From assembly GCF_900155685.1 (NCBI RefSeq), contig NZ_LT732547.1, positions 70,478 to 134,477 on the forward strand: a stretch of 64,000 nucleotides of DNA. The letters are read 5' to 3'. The position numbers and the translations under genes were made by a program. Each line of letters opens with the position of its first letter. Position 1 is the first letter of the stretch. The notes under the pieces were generated by a model. It was given only the letters and a program-made list of their open reading frames with translations. It was not told where the DNA came from and made no database searches. Below, one piece after another: positions 38,114-54,796 of the stretch. The stretch comes from Paenibacillus bouchesdurhonensis (GTDB taxonomy: Bacteria; Bacillota; Bacilli; Paenibacillales; Paenibacillaceae).

Positions 38114-38129
38114 TGTGAGGTAGTTAAAG

Positions 38130-38146
38130 CGTTTTGAAAAAACGCA
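38130..38146 (+). repeat. Perfect small inverted repeat between potC and potD
   Basis: GCGTTTT-GAA-AAAACGC, 17 bases after the potC stop. No T-run follows, so it is more likely an mRNA hairpin or protein site than a terminator; a stabilising hairpin before the binding-protein gene would fit (inference). Confidence 0.4.
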
Positions 38147-38229
38147 CATCGGAAGGCTGAGCTTCGGTGCTGAAAAGTTGACTTTTTGAACGTGGTTTAA
38201 CTAGGTGATTAAAGAGAGGAGACCAAGAG

Positions 38230-39276
38230 TTGAAAAGAATGAGATGGGCCGGCGTGCTGCTGGCGAGTATGTTAGTAATATCCCTACTGTCCGGATGCGG
38301 ATCATCTGGGAAGCAGACGCTGAATATATACAGCTGGGCCGATAACTTTGATGTGGATGTATTGGCCGATTTTGAAAAGCAATATGATGTAAAAATTGTG
38401 TATGATGTATTTGCCAACAATGAGGATTTGCTTGCGAAGATCAAAACGGGCGGCAGCGGCTATGATCTGATTCAACCATCCGATTACATGGTAGACACTA
38501 TGATTAAGGAGGACTTGCTCGCGCCGTTGAATATGGAGAATATTCCGAATTTCGAGAATATCGATCCTGCGTTTAAGGATCCGGTGTTTGATCCGGGCAA
38601 CAAGTACTCCATCGTGTATATGACCGGTGTAACAGGAATTGCATACAACAAGAAATACATCAAGGATGAAATCGATAGCTGGGAAGACCTCTGGAACCCG
38701 GCGTATAAGGGGAAAGTGCTCCTGCTCGACGATAACCGGGAAGTGATCGGGATGTCGCTGAAAAAGGCTGGCAAATCGAACAGCTCCATGGATGAAGCGG
38801 AAATTACCGCCGCGGTGGATGATTTGAAGCAGCTGCTGCCGAGCGTGCTTGCTTTTGATACCGATAATATCAAGAATAAAATGATTCAGGAAGAAGGCTG
38901 GATCGGCACGGTGTGGTCTGGCGATGCATCTCTGATTGCCAAGGACAACCCGGACGTGGCGTATGTCGTGCCTAAAGAAGGCGGAACGATCTTCGCGGAT
39001 AACTATGCTATTCCGAAGGACGCGAAGAATCAGGAGCTGGCGGAGAAATTCATCAACTATATGTTGGAGCCTGAGGTTAGCGCGAAAAATTACGAATCGA
39101 TTGGATATAGCGATCCGAATATTAAGGCAAAGGAATTCCACAGCGAAGAATATAATGCCGATACGATGATCAACCTTTCTGTGGACGAGCTGTCCCGCAC
39201 GGAGTGGCTCGGCGACGTTCAGGATAAGCTGCAGCTTTATGACCATTTCTGGACGGAGCTGAAGAGCGGCCGCTAG
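38230..39276 (+). CDS. potD: Spermidine/putrescine-binding lipoprotein PotD
   Basis: 348 residues. Lipoprotein signal with lipobox LLSGC, lipidated Cys at residue 23, then LNIYSWADNFDVDVLADFEK as in PotD/PotF, and YDLIQPSDYMVDTMI. TTG 38230 is the start, nine bases after GAGGAGA. Separated from potC by 116 bases. A terminator follows at 39318. Confidence 0.92.
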   Translation: MKRMRWAGVLLASMLVISLLSGCGSSGKQTLNIYSWADNFDVDVLADFEKQYDVKIVYDVFANNEDLLAKIKTGGSGYDLIQPSDYMVDTMIKEDLLAPLNMENIPNFENIDPAFKDPVFDPGNKYSIVYMTGVTGIAYNKKYIKDEIDSWEDLWNPAYKGKVLLLDDNREVIGMSLKKAGKSNSSMDEAEITAAVDDLKQLLPSVLAFDTDNIKNKMIQEEGWIGTVWSGDASLIAKDNPDVAYVVPKEGGTIFADNYAIPKDAKNQELAEKFINYMLEPEVSAKNYESIGYSDPNIKAKEFHSEEYNADTMINLSVDELSRTEWLGDVQDKLQLYDHFWTELKSGR

Positions 39277-39440: not shown

Positions 39441-40232
39441 ATGATCATGTCCAAGAAGATACAAATTCGACTATGCCTGCTAGCTGCCCTGCTGTTGCCG
39501 ACAGGAATGCTTCTGGAGGGGAGAGTTAGCGAAGCTGCGGCCTCCGAGAGACTTCATGCAAGCCAGGCGCAATTCACGGTGATTGCCCCAGGAACTACGG
39601 CAGCTCCGAACCAAGGGGTTCAAGTGGAGACACGCACAATAACGAAGTCTTTACCCGGGGCTTCGATTAAAGCGGAGTATCCGCATGTTAGCGGCTTGAA
39701 GAGCAAATCTGTCCAACGGAGACTCAATTCTTTTTTCAAGGCTCGGGCAGAAGCGTTCGTGAAGAAATCGGTTCAAGAAATGAAGCAAAGCGGGCCTTCT
39801 CCCAGCGGCCATGAGTATGAATTTTTGGGCAACTACAATGTCACGTATAACAAGAATGGCATCTTGAGTCTCTATGAGCAAACCTATGCTTATACGGGAG
39901 GGGCTCATGGGAACAGCTATCGGGAGGGAATGACCTTCCGACTGGAGGACGGGAAGCTGCTTACACTTGATGAGCTGCTGCGTGCAAATCCGAATTATCG
40001 CCAAATCGTTGACCCGGCGATTGCTCAGCAGTTGCAGCAAACACAGGGGTATTTCGGTAATTTCAAAACAATTGGCCCGAATCCATCGTATTACGTCAAG
40101 GATGAGGGAGTCGTTATCTTTTTCCCGGTCTACGAGTATTTGCCTTATGTGAACGGGTTCCCGGAGTTCTATTTTCCCTTCTCACAGCTGCTTCCGGCGG
40201 GTACGAATCCGTTTGATTTCACAAGACGCTAA
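39441..40232 (+). CDS. Secreted DUF4163/DUF3298 domain protein
   Basis: 263 residues. A hydrophobic N-terminal signal (IQIRLCLLAALLLPTGMLLE, probable cleavage near SEAA) is followed by a DUF4163-like part (KAEYPHVSGLKSKSVQRRLN) and a C-terminal DUF3298 part (TYAYTGGAHGNSYREGMTFR, EGVVIFFPVYEYLPYVNGFP). This two-domain layout is found in RsiV and PdaC-type surface proteins; no catalytic domain is attached here. GAGGTGAGG precedes ATG 39441; ATG 39447 is also possible. Confidence 0.82.
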   Translation: MIMSKKIQIRLCLLAALLLPTGMLLEGRVSEAAASERLHASQAQFTVIAPGTTAAPNQGVQVETRTITKSLPGASIKAEYPHVSGLKSKSVQRRLNSFFKARAEAFVKKSVQEMKQSGPSPSGHEYEFLGNYNVTYNKNGILSLYEQTYAYTGGAHGNSYREGMTFRLEDGKLLTLDELLRANPNYRQIVDPAIAQQLQQTQGYFGNFKTIGPNPSYYVKDEGVVIFFPVYEYLPYVNGFPEFYFPFSQLLPAGTNPFDFTRR

Positions 40233-40243
40233 TAGCTTGTTTC

Positions 40244-40289
40244 GAGGCTTTCCACGGGGCGCTGACTCCATGTGGAAAGCCTCTTTTTT
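40244..40289 (+). terminator. Intrinsic terminator after the DUF3298 gene
   Basis: Perfect 12-pair stem GAGGCTTTCCAC / GTGGAAAGCCTC with a 16-base loop and six T. Confidence 0.9.
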
Positions 40290-40320
40290 GCAACAGAAAA
40301 GTAATCAACGGCCGGTTGTT

Positions 40321-40349
40321 TTGTTACTGTTATTTCGCTATGCTAATAT
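40321..40349 (+). promoter_or_regulatory. Candidate promoter of the LacI-type gene
   Basis: TTGTTA (40321-40326), 17-base spacer, TAATAT (40344-40349), about 47 bases before the GTG start and just downstream of the preceding terminator. Confidence 0.5.
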
Positions 40350-40395
40350 AAGTCGTCGAGATGAGTCGCTCTTAATTTACTGGGGAGAGTTATTT

Positions 40396-41412
40396 GTGCG
40401 AAGGAAGGTCACAATGCAGCAAATTGCCGACATGGCAGGAGTGTCAAAATTTGCTGTATCCAGGGCGCTTTCCGGTAAAACGGGAGTAAGCGAGCAAACG
40501 AGAGCATATATTGTCAAGGTCGCAGGCGAGCTGGGGTTCTTTGAAGCATCAAAGCAAACGGCAATTCGGCCCGGCTACCATTTGAGAGATGCCGAAACTT
40601 CAGGCACGGTACTTGTATTATTTCCTAATATTCGTTATCAGAACGTGGAGAATAAATACTGGGGATTCATTTATGATGGGATATCCCAAAAGCTGCAGGA
40701 TAACGGTTTGGATATGATTACATTAACCCAGCCCTTCCGCGATAGTGTCACGAAGTTGTTCAATCCGAAGATGATTCTGGGAGTCATTTGTGTGGGAACG
40801 GTGTCTACCCAGGTGCTGCTTGAACTGCAAAGCATGGAGCTACCGATGGTCATGATCGACCATATTGATCCAGCCATACAATGCGACGGCGTGTTTGTAG
40901 ATAACTACTTTATGATGAGAAAGTTAATGGCCATGTTGATTAGCAAAGGGTATCAGCGATTTCAATTTGTGGGGAAGGTTTCTTATGCCTTTAGCTTTGA
41001 AGAGCGTTGGAGAGCATTTCGGGATTCTCTTTCCGAGTATGGTATCGTACACAACCAGCTTCCTCAGCTTATGGCGTCCGAAAATCTAAATGAATATGAG
41101 GGCGTGATGTCTATTCCGCAAGAAGAGCTTCCGCAAATTTTTGTATGTGCCAATGACTGCGTAGCCTTGAGCGTGTACGATGCATTGAACGAGCGAGGTA
41201 TTAAAATTCCTACCGAGTGTGGAGTTGCGGGGTTTGACAATACGGAGGATGCTCAGCAATTGGTTCCGAAGTTAACATCAGTCCATGTTCCCAAGGAAGC
41301 GATGGGAGCCAGGGCGGTCGATCGTCTGTTGCAGCGGGTCAGAAATAGGGATGAATGTTATGAGAAAACGTTGCTGCTGGGCGATGTAGTGCTCAAGCAT
41401 TCAACGATTTAA
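40396..41412 (+). CDS. LacI-family transcriptional regulator
   Basis: 338 residues: N-terminal LacI HTH (VTMQQIADMAGVSKFAVSRA, LSGKTGVSEQTR) and a periplasmic-binding-like sensor domain (FVCANDCVALSVYDALNERG, VAGFDNTEDAQQLVPKLTSV). GTG 40396 is chosen because GGGGAG is nine bases upstream; earlier in-frame codons lie inside the preceding terminator. Its position directly before the carbohydrate cluster suggests it controls that cluster, with candidate operators at 41482-41530 or 41717-41730. The effector sugar is unknown. Confidence 0.9.
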   Translation: MRRKVTMQQIADMAGVSKFAVSRALSGKTGVSEQTRAYIVKVAGELGFFEASKQTAIRPGYHLRDAETSGTVLVLFPNIRYQNVENKYWGFIYDGISQKLQDNGLDMITLTQPFRDSVTKLFNPKMILGVICVGTVSTQVLLELQSMELPMVMIDHIDPAIQCDGVFVDNYFMMRKLMAMLISKGYQRFQFVGKVSYAFSFEERWRAFRDSLSEYGIVHNQLPQLMASENLNEYEGVMSIPQEELPQIFVCANDCVALSVYDALNERGIKIPTECGVAGFDNTEDAQQLVPKLTSVHVPKEAMGARAVDRLLQRVRNRDECYEKTLLLGDVVLKHSTI

Positions 41413-41429
41413 TATAGCTCAGGGTAAAG

Positions 41430-41454
41430 AAGAGGCGAATGCGCCTCTTTTTTT
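41430..41454 (+). terminator. Intrinsic terminator after the LacI-type gene
   Basis: AGAGGCG / CGCCTCT stem with tight loop and seven T. It separates the regulator from the carbohydrate operon, which needs its own promoter. Confidence 0.9.
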
Positions 41455-41553: not shown

Positions 41554-41581
41554 TTGACATTTTGTTTTGCAAATGTATGAT
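41554..41581 (+). promoter_or_regulatory. Candidate sigma-A promoter of the carbohydrate operon
   Basis: Consensus TTGACA (41554-41559), 16-base spacer, TATGAT (41576-41581). The leader to the first gene would be about 250 bases long, including a G-rich part (41646-41685) and a candidate cre site. Confidence 0.6.
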
Positions 41582-41730: not shown

Positions 41731-41838
41731 ATTTGCTAACTGTTAGTTTTTTTGGTTTATTGTTATGGTTGTTATGTTTGTTTGCTTCACCGTTCAGGGT
41801 TTTTATTTCAATGTATAGAAGAGAATGGGAGGGTTTCT

Positions 41839-43206
41839 ATGTTAAACAAAAAAATTAAACCGCTTACATTTGGTCTATTTATACTGATAATTCTTTTCGT
41901 AGGCGCTTGCTCAAGCTCCGGATCTAGCAACGGCAACTCCAGTGAGTCTGAAGGGAATAAGCCGGCCGCGACGGTTGAGAACCAATCTTCCCCTCAAGAA
42001 GAGGAAGAAGTTCCTGATCTCGGGGGGCGGGTCATTCGATTATCTGCCTGGTGGGACTTGACTCCGAATGGCGAATCGGCCAGCAGCAAAGCTGAGCTTG
42101 AACAGATCGCTGCAGTTGAAGAAAAATACAACGTAAACATTGAATTCGTGAATGTTCCTTTTGACAACTACGTAGATAAATTCACCACCACAACGCTGGC
42201 CGGAGAGCCTTTTGCCGATATTGTCATGCTCGAGAATAAAGCTGCGCTGCCAGCCATCTTAAAGGGACAGATTCTTCCTATTGATGAATTTACCGACGGT
42301 TCCAGCAATATTAATAACGAGCAAAACCTGATTAAGAAGAATGAGCCGTTGGGTGGAGGCAATTACGGATTTGGCCGTCCAGGGAATTCAGGAGTTTCAT
42401 TGATGTATAATCGTGAAATTTTTAAGCAATTAGGTTTGCCGGATCTCCAGGAGTTATATGCCAAAGGGGAGTGGAATTGGAGCAAGTTTGAGGAAATTGC
42501 GAAGCTGGCTACCAAGGACACGAATAACGACGGCAAGAACGATTATTGGGGCTTCTCTGGATGGGGACTCGATATCGCGCGTCACTTTGCCGCTGTGAAC
42601 GGAGCCAAAGCTGTCGATGATGCCGTCGGCAAAGAAGGGATCAGCGATCCGAAGATGGTCGAAGCTCTGGAGTTCATCAACAAACTATACAACGTGGATA
42701 AGGTTGTTAAGGTGAAAACCGGCAACCGCATGGAATGGACGGAGATGGAAACCTTTAAGGATGGGGACGTAGCCATGTTTATCGCTGCGGAATGGATGGT
42801 AGGAGATCTGCAATTTGATTTCAGCATCGTACCGATTCCAAACGGGCCTCAGGGCTCTGACAAATATGTATTTGCAGACTCTGCCGGTCAAGGCTTCTTC
42901 ATCCCTAAGGGCGTAAAGGATCCCCAGCTTGTTTATAAAATCTACGAAGAAATGGTGGATATTCCTCCGCTTGAGGATTTCCCGGGACAAACGTGGCTTG
43001 AGGGGATCTACAAGCATCAGGAAGACATTGATATGGTTGTCCAGCATATTTCGGGTCGAGGGATGCCGGCTCTGGAAGATGCTTACCCGGACTTCCCGCT
43101 TTCTAGTGTAGTGGAGGATATTATATCCAAGAATGCTTCTGTCACTTCAACCATAGATAAATACAAGCAGCAGGCTCAGGCGGCTGTCGATGCATTAGGC
43201 AAGTAA
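41839..43206 (+). CDS. Sugar ABC solute-binding lipoprotein (family 1)
   Basis: 455 residues with signal PLTFGLFILIILFVGAC (lipidated Cys 24), a Ser/Asn/Glu-rich linker, and a CUT1-type binding domain (LTPNGESASSKAELEQIAAV, FADIVMLENKAALPAI, SLMYNREIFKQLGLP). ATG 41839 is chosen, with GGGAGGG just upstream, giving a correct lipoprotein signal. First gene of the 13-kb operon. A hairpin follows at 43221. The substrate is unknown; permeases at 46304 and 47275 are probable partners. Confidence 0.9.
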   Translation: MLNKKIKPLTFGLFILIILFVGACSSSGSSNGNSSESEGNKPAATVENQSSPQEEEEVPDLGGRVIRLSAWWDLTPNGESASSKAELEQIAAVEEKYNVNIEFVNVPFDNYVDKFTTTTLAGEPFADIVMLENKAALPAILKGQILPIDEFTDGSSNINNEQNLIKKNEPLGGGNYGFGRPGNSGVSLMYNREIFKQLGLPDLQELYAKGEWNWSKFEEIAKLATKDTNNDGKNDYWGFSGWGLDIARHFAAVNGAKAVDDAVGKEGISDPKMVEALEFINKLYNVDKVVKVKTGNRMEWTEMETFKDGDVAMFIAAEWMVGDLQFDFSIVPIPNGPQGSDKYVFADSAGQGFFIPKGVKDPQLVYKIYEEMVDIPPLEDFPGQTWLEGIYKHQEDIDMVVQHISGRGMPALEDAYPDFPLSSVVEDIISKNASVTSTIDKYKQQAQAAVDALGK

Positions 43207-43254: not shown

Positions 43255-43338
43255 TCCAGCTATGCATAATTCTCATCCCTGGAGTATTAGAGCAAGGGAT
43301 GGCGTGAGTCATGTTTTGTAATGACTGGGGGACTGACA

Positions 43339-46290
43339 TTGAAGAAGTTAGCCAGACAACTAGGCATAGCCATGCTGCTCGCAGCTATGGTGATCGCTCC
43401 ATTTCCTTCGATCTATGCGGCTTCGGTTCAGCCGGCAGAGGGGGATATTCAGGATGGAAATGAGGGCTTGAATAGCGTGGAGCAAATTTTGAAAGTGAAT
43501 TCCGGATATAGCGAACGTACTTTATATTCGGAGTACGTGAAAGAGTATGAAGACGCATCCACCCCGCATACGGAAATCGTGATCGAAGCCGGCAATTACT
43601 CCTTGTCCGCAGGAATGACGCCTGTTGTCGAAGAGAATTTCGAGGGAATGCCCGGAAAATCTTTGCGTACGGGAGAGGAAGGGCAAGTTTCCTGGGAGAT
43701 TCATGTCGCCGAAGGAGGATTGTACCATTTATCCGTGCAGTACTATCCCGTGGAAGGAAAAAGCACGGATATTCAGCGTTCCTTACTCATTGATGGACAA
43801 TTGCCTTATTTTGAAGCCGCTTTCTTGAAGTTCCCCCGTGTATGGGGCAACCGTTACGAGGAAGTGAAGGTGGATAACCAAGGGAACGAAATTCGGCCTC
43901 AGCAAATCGAGACTCCTCTTTGGCGCAGCATGACCGTTCAGGATACGGACGGAAAATATTCGAAGCCGTATCAATTTTATTTGTCTGCTGGACATCACGA
44001 GATCACTTTGATCTCGCAGCGGGAGCCAATGATGATCAGAGAGCTTAAATTTTATCAGGAGCCGGAAGCTCCGTCTTATAAGGAGGCGCTTGCCGCTTGG
44101 CAGGCTCAAGGGGCAACTCCGGCAGTGAAGCAAAGAATCGAGCTTCAGGCGGAGAATGCGAGCCATAAATCCTCGCCCACTTTATATCCGCTGACGGATC
44201 GCTCCAGCCCTGCTGTATATCCGTACAGCCCGTCGGTGGTGAAAATGAATACGATTGGCGGAAATAATTGGCGTCTGTCGGGACAGTGGATTTCTTGGAG
44301 AGTAGAGGTGCCGGAGAACGGGCTTTACCATATTGGGATGAATGCCAAGCAAAACTTTGTGCGAGGGACGTATTCGGCCCGAAAGCTGCAAATCGATGGC
44401 ATAATACCGTTTCAAGAGGTGGAGGAAATTAAGTTCAAATACAAGGATTCCTGGCGGCTGGAGGTGCTGGGCGAGGTGGAGGAGCCTTATCTATTCTACC
44501 TGACCAAGGGGACGCACGAGTTGTCTTTGGAGGTGAACCTCCAGAGCATGGCGCCGCTGATTCATGAAGTGGAGCAGAGCCTGCTTAATATCAATGCTTT
44601 ATATCGCAAAATTCTGATGATTACCAGCTCCAGCCCTGACGCCTTCCGGGATTATCAGTTGGACAAGAAGATTCCCGGGTTGAAGGAGAGTCTTGAGACC
44701 GAGCGAGATCGGCTTGATCAGGTCATTCTCGGACTTAAATCGATGGCCGGGCAGCGGGGCGACCAGGAGGCTTTGCTGCTCACGATGCGCGATCAACTGG
44801 AGGATATGCTTGATCGGCCGGATAGAATACCGCGGCAGCTTACGTCATTAAAGACCAATGCGGGAGGCTTAGGCACCTGGATGTTGAAGGCCAGGGAGCA
44901 GCCACTGCAATTGGATGCCCTATATATTCTGTCGCCGGATGAGAAGTTTCCTGATACGGGCCGCTCCTGGGCCGCTAAGGCTGTCCATGAACTATCTACG
45001 TTTTTCAGCTCCTTCTTCATCGATTACAACAAGATTGGCGATGTCACCGTCGGCAAAGATGCGCGTTCGATCACCGTCTGGATGGGAGCAGGGCGTGATC
45101 AGGCCAATACGCTAAAGGCGATGATTGATGAATTGTTTACTCCGGAATCCGGGATTCAGGTCAATGTTGAGCTGGTTCCTATGCATACGCTGCTTCAGGC
45201 GACTCTAGCGGGTCAAGGGCCGGATATTGCGATGGGTGTCAGCAATGACATTCCTGTCAACTATGCGATGCGCAATGCAGTCAAGGATCTCACGCAATTC
45301 GGTGATTTCAAGCAGACAGCAGAGCGATTCCGAGCCAGCGCGATGCTCCCCTATCAGTATGAGCAGGGCGTATATGCCCTGCCGGAGCAGCAGACCTTCA
45401 GCATGCTGTTCTATCGCAAGGACATTATGGAGGAATTGAAGCTTGCGGTACCGCAGACATGGGATGAGGTCTACAGCATGCTGTCGGTTCTTAGCAAGGG
45501 GCATATGCAATTCGGGCTGCCGCTTACGCTGCAGCCGCAATACGCGGGCCAGAACATTCCGCCCAATCCGGTCTATGGCTCTCTGTTGTTCCAGAATGGC
45601 GGTGAATTCTATCGCTATGGCGGGGCGGAATCCGATCTGGATTCCAAGATCGGTATTGAAGCCTTCAAGACTTGGACGGAGTTTTACAGCGATTACAAAC
45701 TGGATAAGGAGTTCGACTTCGCGAACAGATTCCGTACCGGGGAAATGCCGATCGGCATTGCTGACTACACCATGTATAACCAGCTGTCTGTATTTGCGCC
45801 TGAAATCAATGGATTGTGGGAGTTCACGACGATCCCCGGCGTGTTGGGGGAGGACGGGGTCGTTCACCGGGATACACCCGCTAGCGGCACGGGCCTGATC
45901 ATGCTCAAAGGGATCAGGGATGATGAAGCGGGTTGGGAATTCATGAAATGGTGGACCAGCGAGGAGATCCAGACTCGCTTTGGGCGCGAGATGGAAGGAC
46001 TTATGGGGGCCGCGGCACGTTATCCGACGGCGAATATGGCCGCGCTGGAGCAGCTTCCTTGGCCGATTCAGGACTACCGGAGCTTGTCGGCCCAGCTGGA
46101 TTTTGTGCGAGGCGTACCCGAGGTGCCGGGGGGATACTTTACGGGAAGGCATTTGGTGAACGCCTTCTATCAGGCGGTCAATGAGGATACGCCTGCCCGT
46201 GAAGCCATTATGGATTATGTGGAATACATTCAGGATGAGATTGCCTTGAAGCGCAAGGAATTCGGGCTGTCTAATTCCCGGGATAGATAA
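43339..46290 (+). CDS. Secreted two-CBM-like plus solute-binding fusion protein (983 residues)
   Basis: Signal peptide (KKLARQLGIAMLLAAMVIAP, cleavage near IYAAS) without a lipobox Cys. Two tandem beta-sandwich modules of carbohydrate-binding type follow: about 70-245 (VSWEIHVAEGGLYHLSVQYY) and about 265-420 (ISWRVEVPENGLYHIGMNAK), each with the 'W-V-EGGLYHL' signature. A helical segment (about 420-560) leads to a family 1 solute-binding domain (about 570-960; ITVWMGAGRDQANTLKAMID, LAGQGPDIAMGVSNDIPV, YALPEQQTFSMLFYRKDIM). TTG 43339 is preferred, seven bases after GGGGG. Binding proteins are usually 400-450 residues, so this is an unusual fusion. Confidence 0.85.
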   Translation: MKKLARQLGIAMLLAAMVIAPFPSIYAASVQPAEGDIQDGNEGLNSVEQILKVNSGYSERTLYSEYVKEYEDASTPHTEIVIEAGNYSLSAGMTPVVEENFEGMPGKSLRTGEEGQVSWEIHVAEGGLYHLSVQYYPVEGKSTDIQRSLLIDGQLPYFEAAFLKFPRVWGNRYEEVKVDNQGNEIRPQQIETPLWRSMTVQDTDGKYSKPYQFYLSAGHHEITLISQREPMMIRELKFYQEPEAPSYKEALAAWQAQGATPAVKQRIELQAENASHKSSPTLYPLTDRSSPAVYPYSPSVVKMNTIGGNNWRLSGQWISWRVEVPENGLYHIGMNAKQNFVRGTYSARKLQIDGIIPFQEVEEIKFKYKDSWRLEVLGEVEEPYLFYLTKGTHELSLEVNLQSMAPLIHEVEQSLLNINALYRKILMITSSSPDAFRDYQLDKKIPGLKESLETERDRLDQVILGLKSMAGQRGDQEALLLTMRDQLEDMLDRPDRIPRQLTSLKTNAGGLGTWMLKAREQPLQLDALYILSPDEKFPDTGRSWAAKAVHELSTFFSSFFIDYNKIGDVTVGKDARSITVWMGAGRDQANTLKAMIDELFTPESGIQVNVELVPMHTLLQATLAGQGPDIAMGVSNDIPVNYAMRNAVKDLTQFGDFKQTAERFRASAMLPYQYEQGVYALPEQQTFSMLFYRKDIMEELKLAVPQTWDEVYSMLSVLSKGHMQFGLPLTLQPQYAGQNIPPNPVYGSLLFQNGGEFYRYGGAESDLDSKIGIEAFKTWTEFYSDYKLDKEFDFANRFRTGEMPIGIADYTMYNQLSVFAPEINGLWEFTTIPGVLGEDGVVHRDTPASGTGLIMLKGIRDDEAGWEFMKWWTSEEIQTRFGREMEGLMGAAARYPTANMAALEQLPWPIQDYRSLSAQLDFVRGVPEVPGGYFTGRHLVNAFYQAVNEDTPAREAIMDYVEYIQDEIALKRKEFGLSNSRDR

Positions 46291-46303: not shown

Positions 46304-47272
46304 GTGGCACATTCACCGCAATTGAATCGGCCCGAAGGAGAGCTTCGCCATTCTTCCAAAGAGCCTCAGGCCAGCCTTGGCTTCAGATTCAAACGTGCGC
46401 TCGTCATGCATCGCCATTCGTATATTTTAATTGCGCCCTATGCGATTTTATTTACCTTATTCACCGTACTGCCGGTGATCATGTCCATTCTGATCAGCTT
46501 TACACACTTTAATATGCTGGAGTTTCCGCGGTTCATCGGCTGGCAAAATTACACCCGCCTATTTCTGGAGGACGACATTTTCTTGATCGCCGTGAAAAAT
46601 ACGCTCCTATTGGCGACAATTACCGGGCCTGTCAGCTACATTGCTTGTTTTCTGTTCGCCTGGCTGATTAACGAGCTGTCTCCCAAGGTGCGGGCGTTTA
46701 TGACACTGGTGTTCTATGCGCCGTCTATTTCCGGGAACATCTTCTTCATATGGCAAATTATGTTCTCGGGTGATCGCTACGGAATCATTAATGGCTTGTT
46801 GATGAAATTAGGCGTTATCATCGAGCCTATTCTATGGCTGAAGACGGAAGCTTACATCATGCCGATTATTATCATCGTACAGTTGTGGCTGAGTCTTGGG
46901 ACAGGATTTCTTGCTTTTATCGCGGGTTTGCAAACGGTAGACAAGACTTTGTTCGAGGCGGGGGCCGTAGATGGCATCCGCAACCGCTGGCAGGAGCTGT
47001 GGTTCATTACCTTGCCTTCCATGCGCCCACAGTTGATGTTCGGTGCGGTCATTCAACTGACAACGGCTTTCGCTGTTTCGGACGTATCGATTCACCTGGC
47101 GGGATTCCCTAGCGTGAATTATGCCGGGGAGACCGTGGTTACCCACTTGATCGATTTCGGTACGATCCGGTTTGAGATGGGCTTTGCCTCGGCGATCGCA
47201 ACCGTCCTATTTATCATGATGCTTGGTACGAATCTGGGCGTGCAGAAATTGCTGCGGAAGGTGGGTGAATAG
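46304..47272 (+). CDS. Sugar ABC permease, MalF/UgpA-like
   Basis: 322 residues. N-terminal hydrophilic segment of about 40, then six membrane helices (ILIAPYAILFTLFTVLPVIM first) and the EAA loop EAGAVDGIRNRWQELWFITL. GTG 46304 follows GGGGGGAT and lies 13 bases after the fusion-protein gene. Pairs with the next permease. No ATPase gene nearby. Confidence 0.9.
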   Translation: MAHSPQLNRPEGELRHSSKEPQASLGFRFKRALVMHRHSYILIAPYAILFTLFTVLPVIMSILISFTHFNMLEFPRFIGWQNYTRLFLEDDIFLIAVKNTLLLATITGPVSYIACFLFAWLINELSPKVRAFMTLVFYAPSISGNIFFIWQIMFSGDRYGIINGLLMKLGVIIEPILWLKTEAYIMPIIIIVQLWLSLGTGFLAFIAGLQTVDKTLFEAGAVDGIRNRWQELWFITLPSMRPQLMFGAVIQLTTAFAVSDVSIHLAGFPSVNYAGETVVTHLIDFGTIRFEMGFASAIATVLFIMMLGTNLGVQKLLRKVGE

Positions 47273-47274
47273 AC

Positions 47275-48153
47275 ATGGAACTGCCAGTCAAGCTCAGGCT
47301 GCCGCAACGTAAGAGGCGGATTAACCGTTCTTGGGGCGGAAATATGGCGTTGTTCGGCTTCCTTGCCTTGGTAGGTGCATTTATGGCCCTGCCCTTGGTG
47401 TATGCCATTAATAATGCATTTAAGCCGCTTGATGAAATCTTTCTTTTTCCGCCAAGGCTATTTGTGCGGAATCCAACGATGGATAACTTCTCGGATCTCT
47501 TTCACTTACTGGGGGATTCATGGGTTCCGTTCAGCAGATATATTTTTAATACCGTGTTCGTGACTGGGATGGGGATCATCGGGCATGTGCTGCTGGCTTC
47601 GGCGGCTGCTTATCCGCTCGCCAAACATAAATTTCCCGGCAGAGGCCCCATGTTCCATATTGTCGTCTTATCGCTGATGTTTACGCCTGCGGTTACGGCA
47701 ATTCCCAACTATATGATCATGTCTTGGTTGGGGCTGGTTAACACGTATTGGGCGATTATTATCCCTGCCTTTGCCTATTCGCTCGGGCTGTATTTGATGA
47801 AGCAATTTATGGAGCAAATTCCCGATGCGCTGCTAGAGGCTGCCAAGATCGATGGAGCTAGCGAATACCGGATTTTCTGGTCGATTGTTATGCCTAATGT
47901 CAAGCCGGCTTGGATGACATTGATTATTCTGCTGTTTCAGATGTTGTGGGGAGCTGATACAAGCGGGTTCATCTACAGCGAGCAGCTGAAGTCGCTGAAT
48001 TATGCGGCAAATCAAATTGTGCTGGGCGGTATCGCCCGGGCCGGCGTGGGAGCTGCTGTGGCTTTATTGCTGATGAGCGTGCCGATCACGGTATTCGTTT
48101 TTTCGCAAAGCCAGATTCTTGAGACGATGGCTACGTCAGGAATGAAGGAGTAG
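47275..48153 (+). CDS. Sugar ABC permease, MalG/UgpE-like
   Basis: 292 residues, six membrane helices, EAA loop EAAKIDGASEYRIFWSIVMP. Starts two bases after the previous permease stop, so the two are translated together. Confidence 0.9.
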   Translation: MELPVKLRLPQRKRRINRSWGGNMALFGFLALVGAFMALPLVYAINNAFKPLDEIFLFPPRLFVRNPTMDNFSDLFHLLGDSWVPFSRYIFNTVFVTGMGIIGHVLLASAAAYPLAKHKFPGRGPMFHIVVLSLMFTPAVTAIPNYMIMSWLGLVNTYWAIIIPAFAYSLGLYLMKQFMEQIPDALLEAAKIDGASEYRIFWSIVMPNVKPAWMTLIILLFQMLWGADTSGFIYSEQLKSLNYAANQIVLGGIARAGVGAAVALLLMSVPITVFVFSQSQILETMATSGMKE

Positions 48154-48157
48154 GCGA

Positions 48158-49624
48158 ATGAAGTCTATACATGTAAAAATAACGACAATCGTGCTGCTGG
48201 CCACTGTTCTGCTTGGCATATCTGCGATCCCGGTGTCGGCGTATGCGCCTTATGATAGCTATAACTATAACTACTGGGAGGAGCCTACCCCTTCTCCTGC
48301 CGCTTATTTACCGGAGGACATCCTATCTGGCCGCAGTCTAGGTATTGGCGATTTCAAGGAGCCGAGCGATTTGTACGTCGATTCGTCCGGGGCCGTCTAC
48401 GTGCTGGATAGCGGAAATAATCGGCTTGTGATCCTCGACCATACAGGCGAAGTTTCCCGGGTGATTTCTTCCTTCCAGCATGATGGAGCGGAGGATCATT
48501 TCAACAAGCCCGAGGGATTGTATGTTACCGATGATGGATTTATCTATGTGGCCGATACGGAAAATAAACGGATAGTTGTCTTGTCGCCGCAAGGCGAGCT
48601 GAAGCAGATTATTCGTGATCCCGAGTCAGATCTATTCGCTTCGAACTTCACCTTTTATCCTACCAAGCTGGCCGTGGACAAAGCCGACCGGGTATATGTC
48701 GTTGCCCGGGGCGTCTATGAAGGGATCGTCCAATTTGACGATCAGGGCGGCTTTATTGGTTATATCGGCACCATCAAGGTGAACCCCAGCGCTGCGGATT
48801 ATATCTGGAAGCTGATTTCGACCCAAGCTCAGCGGGAGCAGATGGCCTTGTTTGTGCCCACCGAATTTTCGAATCTAGATATAGATAGCCAAGGCTTTCT
48901 ATATGCAACCAATATCGATGTCGACTCCAAGGAACCGATCAAGCGGCTCAGTCCGTCGGGGCATGATGTATTGAAGCGTTACGGGTACTTTGATGTGAAG
49001 GGCGATATTAACTTTTTTCGATTAGCAGGCGCAGGTATTGAAAGCGGGCCTTCCAAAATCGTGGATGTTAAGATCCGAGAGGGCGGCAAGTTCAGTATGA
49101 TTGATTCTTTGCGGGGACGGGTGTTCACCTATGATGCCGAGGGCAATTTACTATACATTTTTGGCGGAAAAGGAAGCCAGGTTGGAACATTCAAATCTGT
49201 GGCGGCGATTGAGGAATGGAAGGATCGGTTGTTGGTTCTGGATCGGGGAACTGGTCGAATCACGATATTCCGCCCTACTGAATTTGGGGCCAAGGTGAAC
49301 CAGGCTGTGGCGTTCCATGCGGCGGGTGAAGAACAGCAAGCTGTAGCGGTTTGGAAAGAGGTGCTGCGGCTTAACAGCAACTATGACACGGCGTATATCG
49401 GGATCGGCAAGGCTCTGCTGGTGAATAGGCAGAACAAGGAAGCGATGAATTTCTTCAAGCTGGGGATGGATCACCAGTACTACTCCGTAGCTTTCAAACG
49501 ATACCGGAAAGAGGTTATGCAAGGCTCCTTTAGCACGGTTATGACCATAGCTTTAGCACTAGCGGTAGCGGGGATAGGCTGGTCGATCTATCGAAAAAGA
49601 AAATCAAGGGGGATTCAAGCGTGA
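48158..49624 (+). CDS. Membrane-anchored NHL beta-propeller protein
   Basis: 488 residues: signal peptide (IVLLATVLLGISAIPVSAYA), a Tyr/Pro-rich stretch, an NHL-type propeller (about 60-375) with repeats such as PSDLYVDSSGAVYVLDSGNN and PEGLYVTDDGFIYVADTENK, a short TPR-like helical pair (about 385-445), and a C-terminal membrane helix (TVMTIALALAVAGIGWSIYR) with a basic tail. Expected at the outer face of the membrane. Placed between two permease pairs, it could organise transporter components or bind glycan; enzymatic residues were not identified. Confidence 0.8.
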   Translation: MKSIHVKITTIVLLATVLLGISAIPVSAYAPYDSYNYNYWEEPTPSPAAYLPEDILSGRSLGIGDFKEPSDLYVDSSGAVYVLDSGNNRLVILDHTGEVSRVISSFQHDGAEDHFNKPEGLYVTDDGFIYVADTENKRIVVLSPQGELKQIIRDPESDLFASNFTFYPTKLAVDKADRVYVVARGVYEGIVQFDDQGGFIGYIGTIKVNPSAADYIWKLISTQAQREQMALFVPTEFSNLDIDSQGFLYATNIDVDSKEPIKRLSPSGHDVLKRYGYFDVKGDINFFRLAGAGIESGPSKIVDVKIREGGKFSMIDSLRGRVFTYDAEGNLLYIFGGKGSQVGTFKSVAAIEEWKDRLLVLDRGTGRITIFRPTEFGAKVNQAVAFHAAGEEQQAVAVWKEVLRLNSNYDTAYIGIGKALLVNRQNKEAMNFFKLGMDHQYYSVAFKRYRKEVMQGSFSTVMTIALALAVAGIGWSIYRKRKSRGIQA

Positions 49625-50241
49625 AAAAGGAGGATTTCTCTTTTCCCCTGCATGTCATAGTGCATCCGTTTGACGGCTTCTGGGATATGAAATATGAGCA
49701 AAGAGGCAAGCTGAGAATGGTTGCCCTGATTCTGATCCTGGTCATCGGAGCGCTCATTTTTCAGAAGCAATATGCGGGATTCCTGGTCAACCGGATTGAT
49801 CCGCGGACGCTGAACAGCCTGGATGACGTCATCCAAATTCTGTTTGCGTTTTTCCTATGGAGCATTTCCAACTGGGCGGTATGTACTTTAATGGATGGGG
49901 AAGGTCGATTCAAGGATATTATGATGGCTACGGCCTATTCGTTGGTACCTCTCATTCTGATCTACTACCCGACTACATTCATTAGTAATTTCCTTACGCA
50001 GGAAGAGGCAGCTTTCTATTATTTACTGAACACGATGGCTTTGATATGGTGCGCGGGTCTGCTTATTGCGGGAACGATGACCGTGCATCAATTTACGATG
50101 GGCAAAACGCTGGTGACCATGCTGCTGACCCTCATTATGGCGGCCATTGTCATCTTCCTCATGCTGCTGCTGTACTCCTTGTTCCAGCAAATGATTGATT
50201 TTGTGTACAGCATTTATACCGAGTTGATCTTCCGGAAGTAG
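49621..50241 (+). CDS. Yip1-family integral membrane protein
   Basis: 206 residues with about five membrane helices, the N-terminal HPFDGFWDMKYE motif typical of bacterial Yip1/YIP1 proteins, and SNWAVCTLMDGEGRFKDIMM. GTG 49621 overlaps the NHL gene stop by four bases, with AGGGGG upstream. Function unknown; tight coupling suggests a shared complex with the NHL protein. Confidence 0.82.
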   Translation: MKKEDFSFPLHVIVHPFDGFWDMKYEQRGKLRMVALILILVIGALIFQKQYAGFLVNRIDPRTLNSLDDVIQILFAFFLWSISNWAVCTLMDGEGRFKDIMMATAYSLVPLILIYYPTTFISNFLTQEEAAFYYLLNTMALIWCAGLLIAGTMTVHQFTMGKTLVTMLLTLIMAAIVIFLMLLLYSLFQQMIDFVYSIYTELIFRK

Positions 50242-50256: not shown

Positions 50257-52863
50257 ATGAAGAACAAGAAAGTGTTATGGAGCCTAGCCATGGCAATTCT
50301 GCTTGGCGTCGTGATCGTCGTCTTGACGCTGACGTATTCCGGAGCCCCTGTCTCTCCGGTGCTGGCGGAGGGTGCACAGGAGCAAGCTGAATTTGAAGAG
50401 GGGAGGGAACTCGTTTTCTTGCAGGACAGCGGGGCGCCTGTAGAAGGTATGAAGCTTGTCGCCCAACAAGGCGAATACTCTCTTTACTACAATCCTGAGA
50501 CCGCTGAGGTGGCGGTAAACGATACGGGGAGCGGTCACAGCTGGTATTCCAACCCGGTGGACGCTTCGGAGGATGCCTTGGCTTCGCCCTATGAGAAGGA
50601 GTCTCTGGCTTCCCAGTTCAGCCTGGAATTCCGGGACGAGAAAACCAATTTGCTCAAATTCCGCAGTTATCCGGATAGCGTACAGCGGGGGCAGTTTGCA
50701 GCCGAAGGGCTCAAAGATGGACTGAGGGTCATTTATACCTTGGGGGACAATTCCAAAGGAATTGATTTGCTCCCTAAATATATTTCGGCAGACCGCTTGG
50801 AGGAGGCCGTGCTGAGCAAGCTGGATGAGGCTACAGCCAAGTATGTCGCATTGCGGTATTACAAGGTGAAGGATCGTCCTGGCCTGCTGGAGAGGCTGGA
50901 TGATCAGGTAGGCAAGGAGCTGGTGCTCAAGAAGATGCTTACGGCTTTCGAGCAGGCCGGGTACGATGAGAGCCAACTGGCCATCGACAATGAAGCGAAC
51001 GGTGTAAGCGGAAGCTCCGTGACGGAGAAGCCGCAATTTGTCGTACCTCTGGAATACCGTTTAACTCCGGAGGGGTTGAAGGTCACTATCCCGATGAGCC
51101 AAGTAGAGGAAAATCCGAATTACCCGCTGCACAAAATTGAATTCATGGAATATTTCGGAGCGGCGGGAGCCGATGCCGAAGGATATATGTTTGTTCCTGA
51201 CGGATCGGGGGCACTTATCCATCTCAACAACGGCAAAATCAACGATGACCGGTATTCTCAGGAGCTCTATGGAGGCGATAAAAATCAGAGCAGCCGCAAT
51301 CGCCTTCAGGTGACGCAAAGCGCAAGGCTGCCTGTATTCGGGTTAAAAGAAGGAACACGCGCTTGGTATGCCATGATCACGGAGGGCGATGGGATTGCTA
51401 GTGTGAATGCCGACGTAGGCGGCAAGCTGAACAATTACAACCATGTCTATGCCAGCTTTGTGATTCGCAGTGAAGATGAGCTGTTCATGATGTCCGGGAA
51501 CAAATTAAGCGAAGTGCGCTTAACGACAAAACCGGGCTACAAGGGCGCAATTGGCGTCGAATATAGCTTTCTGCAGGGGGAGTCTGCCAATTATGCCGGT
51601 ATGGCCCGGAGTTATCAGCAGAAGCTCGTGAAGGACGGCCGGCTGGGTGCGGCTTCGCGGGAATCTTCTGGGTCAGTTGATGATGATGCGAATCCGAATC
51701 TTCCGTTTCATGTAGATGTTTTTGGGGCGATTACGAAGCAGACCGCATTTCTGGGTGTGCCCTACAACGCCATCACAGCTTTGACTACGCTGGAGGAAGC
51801 CGGTCAGATGGGCCAGGATATGCAGGAGGCAGGGATCTCTAATATTCAAATGCGTCTGGTTGGCTGGTCGAAGGGCGGAGTGAATCATAAACTAGCATCC
51901 GCCGCGACCCAGGGCAGAGTGGGAAGCAACAAGCAACTGGCGAATCTGTCCGCCTGGCTTGAGGAGCAAGGAGGCGCATTATATCCCGATGTTGCCTTCC
52001 AGCAGGTACATCATGACACGATGAATTTCTCTCCCTCTCAGGATGCCGCAAGATTTATAACCCGAGAGGTTTCCAGCCAGTCTCCCTATCGGAGCGATCT
52101 CAATCGGATGAGTCATAGCCTGTACGGGAGTTATTATTTGTTGTCTCCAGCCAAGCTGAGCCACTACGTTGATGATTTTATCAAGGGTTATCAAAAGTTA
52201 GGTGTTCCAGACGTATCCCTTCGTGATTTGGGCGATGTGTTATATGGGGATTATCGTGCGAGCCGTGTTGTCCATCGGCAGCAGGCTAAAGATGTTGTGG
52301 AAGCCGAGCTTGCCAAGCTGAATGAAAAGCAGGGGAAGATGCTGATCGTCGGCGGCAATGGATATGCGCTCGCTTATGCGGATTATGTCATTGATGCGCC
52401 GAATAGCTCCAGCCGCTTTAATATCGTGGATATAGAGGTGCCGTTCTATCAAATGGTGCTGCATGGATACGTCGGCTATGCCGGTGAAGCCGTGAATTTG
52501 TCGCCGGATCAAGATCTGGAGCGAGCGCTACTGAAGATGATTGAATATGGCGCTGCTCCCCATTTTGCCTTCACGAATTCCTCCTCCTCCGAGGTAAAGT
52601 TTACGAACTTTGATGCTCTGTACTCCACCTACTATATGGATTGGCTGCAGGAAGCTGCCGATTTGTATGCCAAGGCGAATACGGTGCTGGGGCCGCTGCA
52701 TAAGGTGCGAATGACGGATCACCGGCTGGTTCAAGAGGGGGTGTATGAGACTGTGTATGAGAATGGGGTTCGTACCTGGGTGAATTATACGGCTCAAGCC
52801 GTCTTGGTTGAAGGGCATAAGGTGGAGTCTATGGGCTATGCGATTGGAGGGGGAGCGCGGTGA
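50257..52863 (+). CDS. Large DUF5696 surface protein, possible TIM-barrel glycan-active protein
   Basis: 868 residues with an N-terminal signal/anchor (LWSLAMAILLGVVIVVLTLT). The N-terminal half is beta-rich (WYSNPVDASEDALASPYEKE, FQVPLEYRLTPEGLKVTIPM-like), and the C-terminal half alternates strands and helices (ALYPDVAFQQVHHDT, PDVSLRDLGDVLYGDY, MLIVGGNGYALAYADYVID), which resembles a TIM-barrel hydrolase of the GH101/GH13-like architecture. I assign DUF5696 from memory of similar Paenibacillus proteins; catalytic activity is inference. Overlaps the next permease by four bases. Confidence 0.75.
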   Translation: MKNKKVLWSLAMAILLGVVIVVLTLTYSGAPVSPVLAEGAQEQAEFEEGRELVFLQDSGAPVEGMKLVAQQGEYSLYYNPETAEVAVNDTGSGHSWYSNPVDASEDALASPYEKESLASQFSLEFRDEKTNLLKFRSYPDSVQRGQFAAEGLKDGLRVIYTLGDNSKGIDLLPKYISADRLEEAVLSKLDEATAKYVALRYYKVKDRPGLLERLDDQVGKELVLKKMLTAFEQAGYDESQLAIDNEANGVSGSSVTEKPQFVVPLEYRLTPEGLKVTIPMSQVEENPNYPLHKIEFMEYFGAAGADAEGYMFVPDGSGALIHLNNGKINDDRYSQELYGGDKNQSSRNRLQVTQSARLPVFGLKEGTRAWYAMITEGDGIASVNADVGGKLNNYNHVYASFVIRSEDELFMMSGNKLSEVRLTTKPGYKGAIGVEYSFLQGESANYAGMARSYQQKLVKDGRLGAASRESSGSVDDDANPNLPFHVDVFGAITKQTAFLGVPYNAITALTTLEEAGQMGQDMQEAGISNIQMRLVGWSKGGVNHKLASAATQGRVGSNKQLANLSAWLEEQGGALYPDVAFQQVHHDTMNFSPSQDAARFITREVSSQSPYRSDLNRMSHSLYGSYYLLSPAKLSHYVDDFIKGYQKLGVPDVSLRDLGDVLYGDYRASRVVHRQQAKDVVEAELAKLNEKQGKMLIVGGNGYALAYADYVIDAPNSSSRFNIVDIEVPFYQMVLHGYVGYAGEAVNLSPDQDLERALLKMIEYGAAPHFAFTNSSSSEVKFTNFDALYSTYYMDWLQEAADLYAKANTVLGPLHKVRMTDHRLVQEGVYETVYENGVRTWVNYTAQAVLVEGHKVESMGYAIGGGAR

Positions 52864-53759
52864 GGTTTCAGTGGACGTTGACTAGGCGGCGAGCACTGCT
52901 GGGCATTGCTTTTATCTCGCCGTGGCTGCTCGGCTTTGTGTTCTTGTTTCTCATCCCGTTGATCCAGTCCGTCTCATTCAGCTTTCACAAGTTGACCATT
53001 GTTGAAGGCGGTTATGAGCTGACGGCAGTGGGTTTGAATAATTTCAAGGATGCTCTGCTGGTGAATCCGACTTTTAATCGGATCCTGACGGAATCCGTGA
53101 TAGATATGATCATTAATGTGCCGCTAATTTTATTCTTCAGCTTGTTTACGGCTACGCTGTTGAATCAGAAGTTCCGGGGGAGGACGGCGGCGCGGGCGAT
53201 CTTCTTCCTTCCGGTGATTCTGGCTTCCAGTGCTATTACGGCAGCCGAAGCCTCGGGCCTGATTAATTTGATCGGAGATGCCAATGCCATCAATGAGTTG
53301 GGCGGCGCGGCCTCCAGTTTTAACGGTGACTACATGATTATGATGCTGCTTGATCTCGGGATTCCAGGCGTGTTCGTTGAATATCTGATGGAGGCCATTC
53401 TGCGCATTTACGATATTGTGAGCAGCTCTGGAGTTCAGATTATTATTTTCCTAGCGGCGCTGCAGAGCATACCGGGCTCTATGTACGAGGTTGCCAAAAT
53501 CGAGGGAGCCACGAGCTATGAGACGTTCTGGAAGATTACCTTTCCCATGGTCAGTCCGCTCATTCTTACTAATGTGATCTATACGATTATCGACTCGTTC
53601 TCGAACAGCACGATTACTAGGACTATATATACTACAGCCTTTCAGTCGCTTAATTTTGGACTTAGTGCCGCCATGGCCTGGTTATATACGCTGGTCATCG
53701 GCATCATCCTGATCGTGATCGGAGTGAGCGTATCGCGCCGGGTCTTCTACTATGATTAG
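52860..53759 (+). CDS. Second sugar ABC permease, MalF-like
   Basis: 299 residues, membrane helices beginning ALLGIAFISPWLLGFVFLFL, with an EAA-like loop YEVAKIEGATSYETFWKITF. Longer periplasmic loop (about 120-185) than usual. GTG 52860 overlaps the DUF5696 stop (GTGA). Forms a second permease pair with 53786. Confidence 0.88.
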   Translation: MRFQWTLTRRRALLGIAFISPWLLGFVFLFLIPLIQSVSFSFHKLTIVEGGYELTAVGLNNFKDALLVNPTFNRILTESVIDMIINVPLILFFSLFTATLLNQKFRGRTAARAIFFLPVILASSAITAAEASGLINLIGDANAINELGGAASSFNGDYMIMMLLDLGIPGVFVEYLMEAILRIYDIVSSSGVQIIIFLAALQSIPGSMYEVAKIEGATSYETFWKITFPMVSPLILTNVIYTIIDSFSNSTITRTIYTTAFQSLNFGLSAAMAWLYTLVIGIILIVIGVSVSRRVFYYD

Positions 53760-53785: not shown

Positions 53786-54796
53786 ATGGAACTGCAAAAG
53801 GCGACCGCGCGCACCAAGCGTGCGTGGCTGGGCAATGGGGGACATCGGCTGAGAAGCAAAGCGCAGAACGCCCTGTGGACTTTGTTTCGGTACGGCATCA
53901 TATCGGGGATTTGCTTTGTCATTATTTATCCGATCATACGGAAGATAGCGGTAGCGATCATGGATAAGCAGGATATATACAACCCGACGATTTTCCTTAT
54001 TCCGCAAAATTTCACTTTGGATAATATCAAGACAGCGATGAAGGTGCTGAATTATTTCCCTACGCTCGGCAACACGCTTGTATTCGTGACGATCACGATG
54101 CTATTTACGACGATATCCTGCGCTTTGGCGGGATATGGGTTTGCCAGGTTTCACTTTCCAGGAAAAAACATTTTGTTCGGCCTGGCGATCCTAACGATTC
54201 TGATCCCTGCCAATACGTTGATGGTACCGATGTACCTGCACTTTCGCAGCTTCGATTTTCTTGGCATCATTCATTTGCTGACAGGCAATGAGGGGATTAA
54301 TCTCATCAATACGTATTGGCCTACCACGATTTCTGCTCTTACAGCCAATGGATTGAAGGCGGGGTTGTTCATCTACATTTTTCGCCAGTTTTTCCGGGGG
54401 CTTCCGAAGGAGATTGAAGAATCCGCTTTAATCGATGGAGCGGGGGGCTTTAAGACGTTTTTTCGTATTATGCTGCCGAATGCGGTACCGCCGCTTATTA
54501 CCGTGCTGCTGTTCTCCTTTGTGTGGCAATACAATGACTCGTTCTATACCTCGTTATATATGAGTGAAATGAATCTGATGCCGACGATGGTTGCCTCGAT
54601 CGCAGCCAATGCCAATACGGTTGCCCAATCCATGCTCCCGGGCGGGTATGACCCGAATGTGAAGATCGACCCCAACTATATTGCAATGATTGTCGATACC
54701 GGAATATTGTTAGTCATTGTTCCGCTGCTCGTGCTGTATTTGTTCGTTCAGCGATATTTCGTGGAGAGTGTGGAGCGAAGCGGTATAGTCGGATGA
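53786..54796 (+). CDS. Second sugar ABC permease, MalG-like
   Basis: 336 residues: about 45 hydrophilic N-terminal residues, six membrane helices, EAA loop EESALIDGAGGFKTFFRIML. Pairs with 52860. Again no ATPase follows. Confidence 0.88.
   Translation: MELQKATARTKRAWLGNGGHRLRSKAQNALWTLFRYGIISGICFVIIYPIIRKIAVAIMDKQDIYNPTIFLIPQNFTLDNIKTAMKVLNYFPTLGNTLVFVTITMLFTTISCALAGYGFARFHFPGKNILFGLAILTILIPANTLMVPMYLHFRSFDFLGIIHLLTGNEGINLINTYWPTTISALTANGLKAGLFIYIFRQFFRGLPKEIEESALIDGAGGFKTFFRIMLPNAVPPLITVLLFSFVWQYNDSFYTSLYMSEMNLMPTMVASIAANANTVAQSMLPGGYDPNVKIDPNYIAMIVDTGILLVIVPLLVLYLFVQRYFVESVERSGIVG

Follow-up and report, generated by a model that had tools for sequence, protein, structure and literature searches.

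A solute-binding protein with two predicted CBM6/35-like modules, encoded in a conserved eight-gene block of Paenibacillus bouchesdurhonensis

The window, by which we mean the whole stretch of 64,000 nucleotides analysed here, carries ten genes on one strand that run from a LacI-type gene, the probable local regulator, to the permease gene Perm4 (Table 1). Two of them encode solute-binding proteins, SBP1 and SBP2, with SBP1 located directly upstream of SBP2. An inverted repeat with a run of T (41426-41453) lies between the LacI-type gene and SBP1. A promoter-like site was also found upstream of SBP1, and this site is weak as judged by the number of such sites in the region (11 observed, compared to 19.1 in shuffled sequences). 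Elsewhere in the window (35494-39276) lies what looks by eye like a spermidine/putrescine importer, consisting of an ABC ATPase, a pair of permeases and a lipobox-bearing binding protein; it falls outside the finding described here.

Table 1. Positions of the genes and features of the locus in the window (residue numbers refer to the 983-aa form of SBP2)
Feature	Residues	Position	Strand	Basis
LacI-type regulator		40213..41412	+	Pfam
Promoter-like site TTGACA-16-TATGAT upstream of SBP1		41554..41581	+	11/12 matches; weak
SBP1, ordinary lipoprotein SBP (ATG 41839, MLNKK...LFVGACSSS)		41752..43206	+	SBP_bac_1; lipobox read directly
SBP2, solute-binding protein of 983 aa with two CBM6/35-like modules		43339..46290	+	Open frame; SBP_bac_1; AlphaFold2
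SBP2 signal sequence, without lipobox	1-27	43339..43419	+	Sequence read directly
SBP2 module 1, beta-sandwich	80-242	43576..44064	+	VIA-align 2cdp, 3zm8; profile A3 against PDB
SBP2 module 2, beta-sandwich with helical insert	265-534	44131..44940	+	VIA-align 4qb2; profile A4
Helical insert in module 2 (116 residues)	404-519	44548..44895	+	DSSP on models; VIA-align span
SBP2 family-1 solute-binding domain	575-975	45061..46263	+	SBP_bac_1 profile; Foldseek
Perm1, BPD_transp_1		46304..47272	+	Pfam
Perm2, BPD_transp_1		47275..48153	+	Pfam
NHL propeller + TPR + C-terminal TM helix		48158..49624	+	Domain matches; sequence
Yip1-domain membrane protein		49621..50241	+	PF04893, E 3.9e-16
DUF5696 protein, N-terminal TM		50257..52863	+	Pfam; distant glycosidase similarity
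Perm3, BPD_transp_1		52860..53759	+	Pfam
Perm4, BPD_transp_1		53786..54796	+	Pfam
5' remnant of a membrane-anchored DUF5060 enzyme-like gene, about the first 39 codons		54855..54986	+	85% identity to L038 residues 1-39

SBP2 is a single open frame that starts with TTG, six bases downstream of a Shine-Dalgarno-like GGGGGA (43327-43332), and an alternative in-frame ATG at 43321 would extend the protein by 6 residues to a 989-aa form. An earlier note, made from the sequence alone, had described the product as a cleavable signal peptide followed by two repeated beta-sandwich modules, helices and a family-1 binding domain, without a lipobox, and this description was confirmed from the frame, the profiles and the models. 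The C-terminal domain matched PF01547 (SBP_bac_1) over residues 595-884, as numbered in the 989-aa form, with E 5.1e-20 and 73.1 bits (cut-off 26), and has the fold of solute-binding proteins, with Foldseek matches to 5ysb_A and 3uor_B (TMt 0.83 for both). It resembles oligosaccharide-binding proteins, among which the mannotriose-bound CpMnBP1 appeared at rank 23. Assignment to GanS (NF053763) was rejected, the score being 29 bits against an equivalog cut-off of 700 bits. AlphaFold2 gave a pLDDT of 84.1 and a pTM of 0.81 for the full-length protein (37 sequences); when only the N-terminal half was modelled, from residue 76 to 545 and with 36 sequences, the values were 90.9 and 0.86.

The two modules share the repeated pattern 'VSWEIHVAEGGLYHLSVQYY' and 'ISWRVEVPENGLYHIGMNAK', and their profiles are homologous to each other (hhalign, 99.5%, E 8.5e-23). 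Since solute-binding proteins fill the Foldseek list of the whole model, which was uninformative for the modules, the N-terminal half was compared with 996 chains using VIA-align. Both predicted modules have the CBM35/CBM6 beta-sandwich fold: the best match of module 1 was the CBM6 2cdp (Z 16.1, 119 residues, 1.7 Å), with a further match to 3zm8, a CBM35 from a GH26 mannanase (Z 14.8, 123 residues, 2.2 Å), and module 2 matched the CBM35 4qb2 (Z 13.6, 125 residues, 2.0 Å) and the CITase 3wnp (Z 13.9, 127 residues, 2.1 Å). The sequence profiles agree, with a weak match of module 1 (profile A3) to a CBM35 protein in the PDB (2vzp, E 6.8e-4) and a good one of module 2 (profile A4; 5x7g, E 3e-9), so that the CBM-like nature proposed for the modules has held up in both fold and profile. 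Among 36 members of the SBP2 family scanned with Pfam, CBM_35 was found in 18 (best 3.8e-9) and Golvesin_C in 28. No Pfam family was reached at E 0.01 by the N-terminal half of the window protein, a CBM35/CBM6 family profile included, and the modules are therefore named CBM6/35-like rather than filed as CBM35. Insecticidal toxins are also among the structural matches, a likeness that is one of shared fold only.

With regard to the helices, the earlier note had placed them as a spacer between the second sandwich and the binding domain. This had to be corrected: the alignment to 4qb2 comprises only 125 residues over model residues 190-458 and thus bridges the helices, and the last strand of module 2 (model 448-456, protein 523-531, as assigned by DSSP) lies beyond them. 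From the aligned span and length we conclude that, in the predicted structure, the helices form an insert within module 2, before its last strand. In an alignment of 37 SBP2 sequences the similarity extends through both modules and the insert.

The N-terminus was judged by eye and with simple scripts. Residues 1-27 of SBP2 appear as a cleavable Sec-like signal, with a Lys/Arg start, a hydrophobic run and PFPSIYA followed by ASV. No Cys is found at the lipobox position after the hydrophobic run, so that SBP2, as had been claimed, lacks the hallmark of a Gram-positive lipoprotein SBP; a lipobox overlooked through a wrong start was rejected because neither start yields one. The same question was put to 90 non-redundant SBP2 sequences, of which 89 have an N-terminus (L067 lacks it; L numbers are our locus labels). 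A lipobox-like pattern occurs in 5/89, every such Cys being located within the hydrophobic run. A very hydrophobic stretch, by our own threshold of a mean hydropathy of at least 2.5 over the best 20 residues, was seen in 24/89: 17 clostridial sequences, 3 from Bacilli/Acholeplasmataceae bins and 4 from the family of the window (L072, L081, L114 and L117). By eye these resemble uncleaved anchors, for instance IIIAVAVVVVIIAILVLLSL followed by RPVKNY, with the sole exception of L081, which looks cleavable. In other Paenibacillaceae the segments are mostly weaker and many look cleavable; the window protein itself looks cleaved and reaches a mean of 1.95. A retained N-terminal anchor, named beforehand as evidence against tethering by the modules, is thus suggested for relatives and not for the window protein. 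Judged from their sequences, a number of homologues, clostridial ones for the most part, appear to retain a membrane anchor at the N-terminus, indicating that tethering to wall glycan is not generally needed. If SBP2 is cleaved in the window organism, its retention would call for partners, glycan or incomplete cleavage.

The window genome contains one full-length SBP2, the nine other matches being to the SBP domain (22-45% identity). Within the family, 184/295 sampled genomes gave a match with an E value of at most 1e-40, and a contig scan yielded 41 loci, distributed over Paenibacillus, Lachnospiraceae and other clostridia, Treponema, Acholeplasmataceae, two Bacilli bins and Anaerolinea/Chloroflexota bins. 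The possibility of an isolated fusion was dismissed since many genomes hold homologues of the same architecture. Of 76 non-redundant loci, 8 were too short and were dropped, the requirement being at least 11.5 kb downstream of SBP2; all 68 remaining loci, which come from Bacillota, Spirochaetota and Chloroflexota (and include L048, L052, L054, L062 and L075, from which search seeds were also taken), have the order SBP2-Perm1-Perm2-NHL-Yip1-DUF5696-Perm3-Perm4. The order of the block is thus fixed. The portrayal of SBP2 as an unusual form was too narrow, as its architecture is old, fixed and embedded in a conserved gene block. SBP1 precedes SBP2 in the Paenibacillaceae loci, whereas in clostridia and Treponema it follows Perm4 in those loci where it was seen.

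NHL and Yip1 form one reading frame in 8/69 other loci, which suggests, on sequence grounds, that the propeller and the membrane protein work together. Such single NHL-TPR/Yip1 frames are located, for example, at 14674-16773 in L052, 8961-11030 in L075 and 14572-16638 in L072. The DUF5696 profile (A5) gave distant matches to the 3,6-anhydrogalactosidase 5opq (1.8e-15) and the alpha-N-acetylgalactosaminidase 5wzn (1.2e-6), both GH129-like glycosidases, and DUF5696 may accordingly represent an unrecognised glycosidase family. As no ATPase gene is found among the ten genes from LacI to Perm4, the importers presumably share an MsmX-type ATPase.

A quick tree, which comes with a warning of long branches, groups the window with 26 other rows (27 in all, SH-aLRT 99) in what is hereafter called the mannan clade, next to a sister clade of 19 rows (support 93). 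The two clades differ in the enzyme genes that adjoin the block. GH26/GH113 genes were found in 17/26 other loci of the mannan clade compared to 0/19 of the sister clade (Fisher 4e-6), and GH30_2 in 0/26 compared to 12/19 (Fisher 2e-6), both values overstating the significance because the loci are related; GH35 adjoins the block in 5/19 sister-clade loci. These tallies were made by BLAST with seeds from the same loci and over unequal flanks (only 5.6 kb in L045), so that other subfamilies can escape them. Pfam tallies of the flanks cover 99 of the 136 unassigned ORFs, namely those of at least 220 aa, and list 25 families out of 49 in one case and 25 out of 46 in the other; in the L038-L078 flanks 21 of 175 ORFs were scanned one by one. 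By the known specificities of these enzyme families, the neighbours point to beta-mannan for the clade of the window, and the polymer of the sister clade is probably of galactan type. Further block copies (L099-L118), with an SBP2 about 50% identical, occur across many Paenibacillaceae and likely serve another polysaccharide than those of the mannan clade. In three of the four Treponema loci (L052, L056 and L077) a GDSL esterase-like gene accompanies GH130 and GH36, the fourth (L058) having only about 3 kb upstream. No mannanase was seen in the scanned clostridial flanks, which instead contain housekeeping genes such as those for DAHP synthase and pyruvate:ferredoxin oxidoreductase, or GH94 (L051 and L074); a GH94 or GH94-like gene is present in the flanks of the two Lachnospiraceae loci L051 and L074 and in those of L075. 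In eight Lachnospiraceae loci (L055, L057, L059, L061, L063, L064, L065 and L073) the block is preceded by a DAHP synthase gene of the same orientation.

No intact mannan-active enzyme gene adjoins the block in the window, only the DUF5060 remnant. A full DUF5060 gene of at least 486 codons occupies this place in P. fonticola (L038); its remaining part was not found in the window genome, where the only other match (33%, residues 63-189) belongs to a different gene. The other three members of the window subclade (L038, L079 and L080; support 94) likewise have the DUF5060 enzyme and not GH26/GH113, and this enzyme is also present in L097, within the GH26-rich part of the mannan clade. The window genome has in addition a separate mannan locus of the ordinary kind (L119, G000:C7:2057001-2077000) with the genes LacI, GH130, GH113, LacI, lipobox SBP, two permeases, GH130 and GH26. 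GH113 matches were obtained in 174/295 family genomes, 173 of them over the cut-off, compared to a single match, below the cut-off, in 14 control genomes, and GH113 is present in genomes of the same genus without SBP2, e.g. G032, G044 and G055. The block is thus not needed for mannan use, and a beta-mannan-like polymer is still the likeliest candidate substrate for the window.

To what extent the individual proteins follow this change of enzymes is seen from mean identities within the two clades and between them, calculated from 26 mannan-clade and 19 sister-clade sequences. SBP1 was the most divergent (0.57 and 0.52 within the clades, 0.30 between them), SBP2 considerably less so (0.65, 0.67; 0.52), and Perm1 (0.80, 0.78; 0.70) and Perm2 (0.83, 0.79; 0.71) the least; the values for Yip1 were 0.64, 0.67 and 0.53, and those for NHL 0.58, 0.59 and 0.45. 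Perm3 (0.68, 0.70; 0.52), Perm4 (0.68, 0.67; 0.49) and DUF5696 (0.55, 0.52; 0.37) lie between SBP1 and SBP2, and 'constant' is therefore a matter of degree. SBP1 is the protein that changes most with the enzymes, SBP2 together with Perm1 and Perm2 being nearer to a constant core. The faster divergence of SBP1, whose position differs in clostridia and Treponema, might reflect gene exchange. Comparison of the window with P. fonticola gave a dN/dS of 0.07 for SBP2, which speaks against a decaying gene, 0.01-0.11 for the eight others from SBP1 to Perm4 and 0.22 for LacI; the block genes are under purifying selection.

These differences bear on the idea that substrate specificity resides in SBP2, which would then act as the receptor for long beta-mannan chains, its modules binding the polymer and its SBP domain taking the chain end. 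The GH26/GH113 neighbours in the clade and the structural matches to a mannanase module (the CBM35 found in a GH26 enzyme) and to mannan-binding SBPs would fit such a role. However, SBP2 retains a mean identity of 52% between clades whose enzymes differ, and SBP1 only 30%, and in a set of 67 rows (mannan clade, sister clade, clostridial and Treponema) 76/401 SBP-domain positions and 23/139 module 2 positions before the insert are near-invariant (at least 97%), where more variation would be expected of a specific receptor. We therefore do not take SBP2 as a specific mannan receptor, a role that appears unlikely.

The modules and the SBP domain of SBP2 have changed to a similar extent, the helical insert being somewhat more variable between clades (ratio 0.71 compared to 0.81-0.82). 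Both modules have residues that are near-invariant across clades whose enzymes differ, which could also mean that the modules dock SBP2 to a block partner (the NHL propeller, Yip1 or a permease) or to a wall polymer, and serve as tether or structure rather than in glycan capture. The helical insert, the lack of a convincing lipobox in the family and the same partners in all 68 loci are consistent with this, but part of the family already has an apparent membrane anchor and the invariant residues may be core residues, and we regard docking as rather unlikely. That SBP2, Perm1 and Perm2 have changed less than SBP1 would also suit a sensor, in which these three, together with NHL-Yip1, report extracellular glycan to the cell; we know of no import part played by NHL-TPR-Yip1 proteins. 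EAA-like loops are, however, readable by eye in all four permeases, and neither a kinase nor a response regulator is found among the ten genes, which makes a sensor highly improbable.

From these observations we infer uptake, polymer capture, a scaffold role and the substrate of the block. The eight genes probably serve to take plant polysaccharides into the cell, as suggested by their sequences and neighbours. In the reading that we favour, and to which we give an even chance, SBP2 is the putative constant, surface-exposed glycan receptor of a polysaccharide-uptake machine with two importers, in which SBP1 sets the specificity. The neighbouring glycoside hydrolases would trim the polymer or a long oligosaccharide outside the cell; SBP2 would hold the glycan near the membrane via its two sandwiches and hand the saccharide to Perm1/Perm2, and the lipoprotein SBP1 with Perm3/Perm4 would import the substrate-specific fragment. 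Yip1 and the NHL-TPR propeller attached to it would form a membrane scaffold, and DUF5696 an anchored, glycosidase-like part. More tentatively, and with some doubt, the block may be a Sus-like counterpart shared by monoderm and diderm bacteria, i.e. a membrane complex of SBP2 as a modular receptor without a lipid anchor, the Yip1-anchored propeller and the anchored glycosidase-like protein that feeds two permease pairs, with SBP1 and the enzymes exchangeable and conferring specificity for different polysaccharides.

A strictly ordered eight-gene block in Paenibacillaceae, clostridia, Treponema and Chloroflexota bins has no description among the literature searched. This search covered titles and the beginnings of abstracts, with most subscription journals outside its coverage, and found no description of DUF5696 or of the block among the papers listed; passages of PMC10318527 bear on neither. 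If the proposed reading is true, both DUF5696 and the NHL-Yip1 proteins of bacteria would gain a function, and it would become apparent how bacteria with the block handle long plant glycans.

Among known systems, the Sphingomonas alginate ABC importer and the SusCD system of Bacteroidota would, if our reading is right, be alike in surface capture of a polymer and import of long saccharides; we know of no components that they have in common with the block except the ABC importer type. The SBP domain of SBP2 shares its fold with the mannan-oligosaccharide-binding protein CpMnBP1 (4r9f and 4r9g), although identity is only 17% and 16% and the CpMnBP1 chains, of 402 and 394 residues, have no such modules. 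With CUT1-type sugar ABC importers the locus shares a family-1 SBP, two BPD_transp_1 permeases, a LacI-type regulator and the lack of an ATPase among the ten genes. In contrast to these, the block goes with two SBPs and two permease pairs and includes NHL/TPR, Yip1 and DUF5696 in 68/68 loci, and SBP2 differs from the usual lipoprotein SBP in its double size, the missing lipobox and the two CBM-like modules. These modules have the predicted beta-sandwich fold of CBM35/CBM6 modules (5x7g, 3zm8, 4qb2, 2vzp and 2cdp; Z 13.6-16.1), whereas they belong to the SBP of a transporter rather than to an enzyme, and module 2 carries a helical insert of 116 residues.
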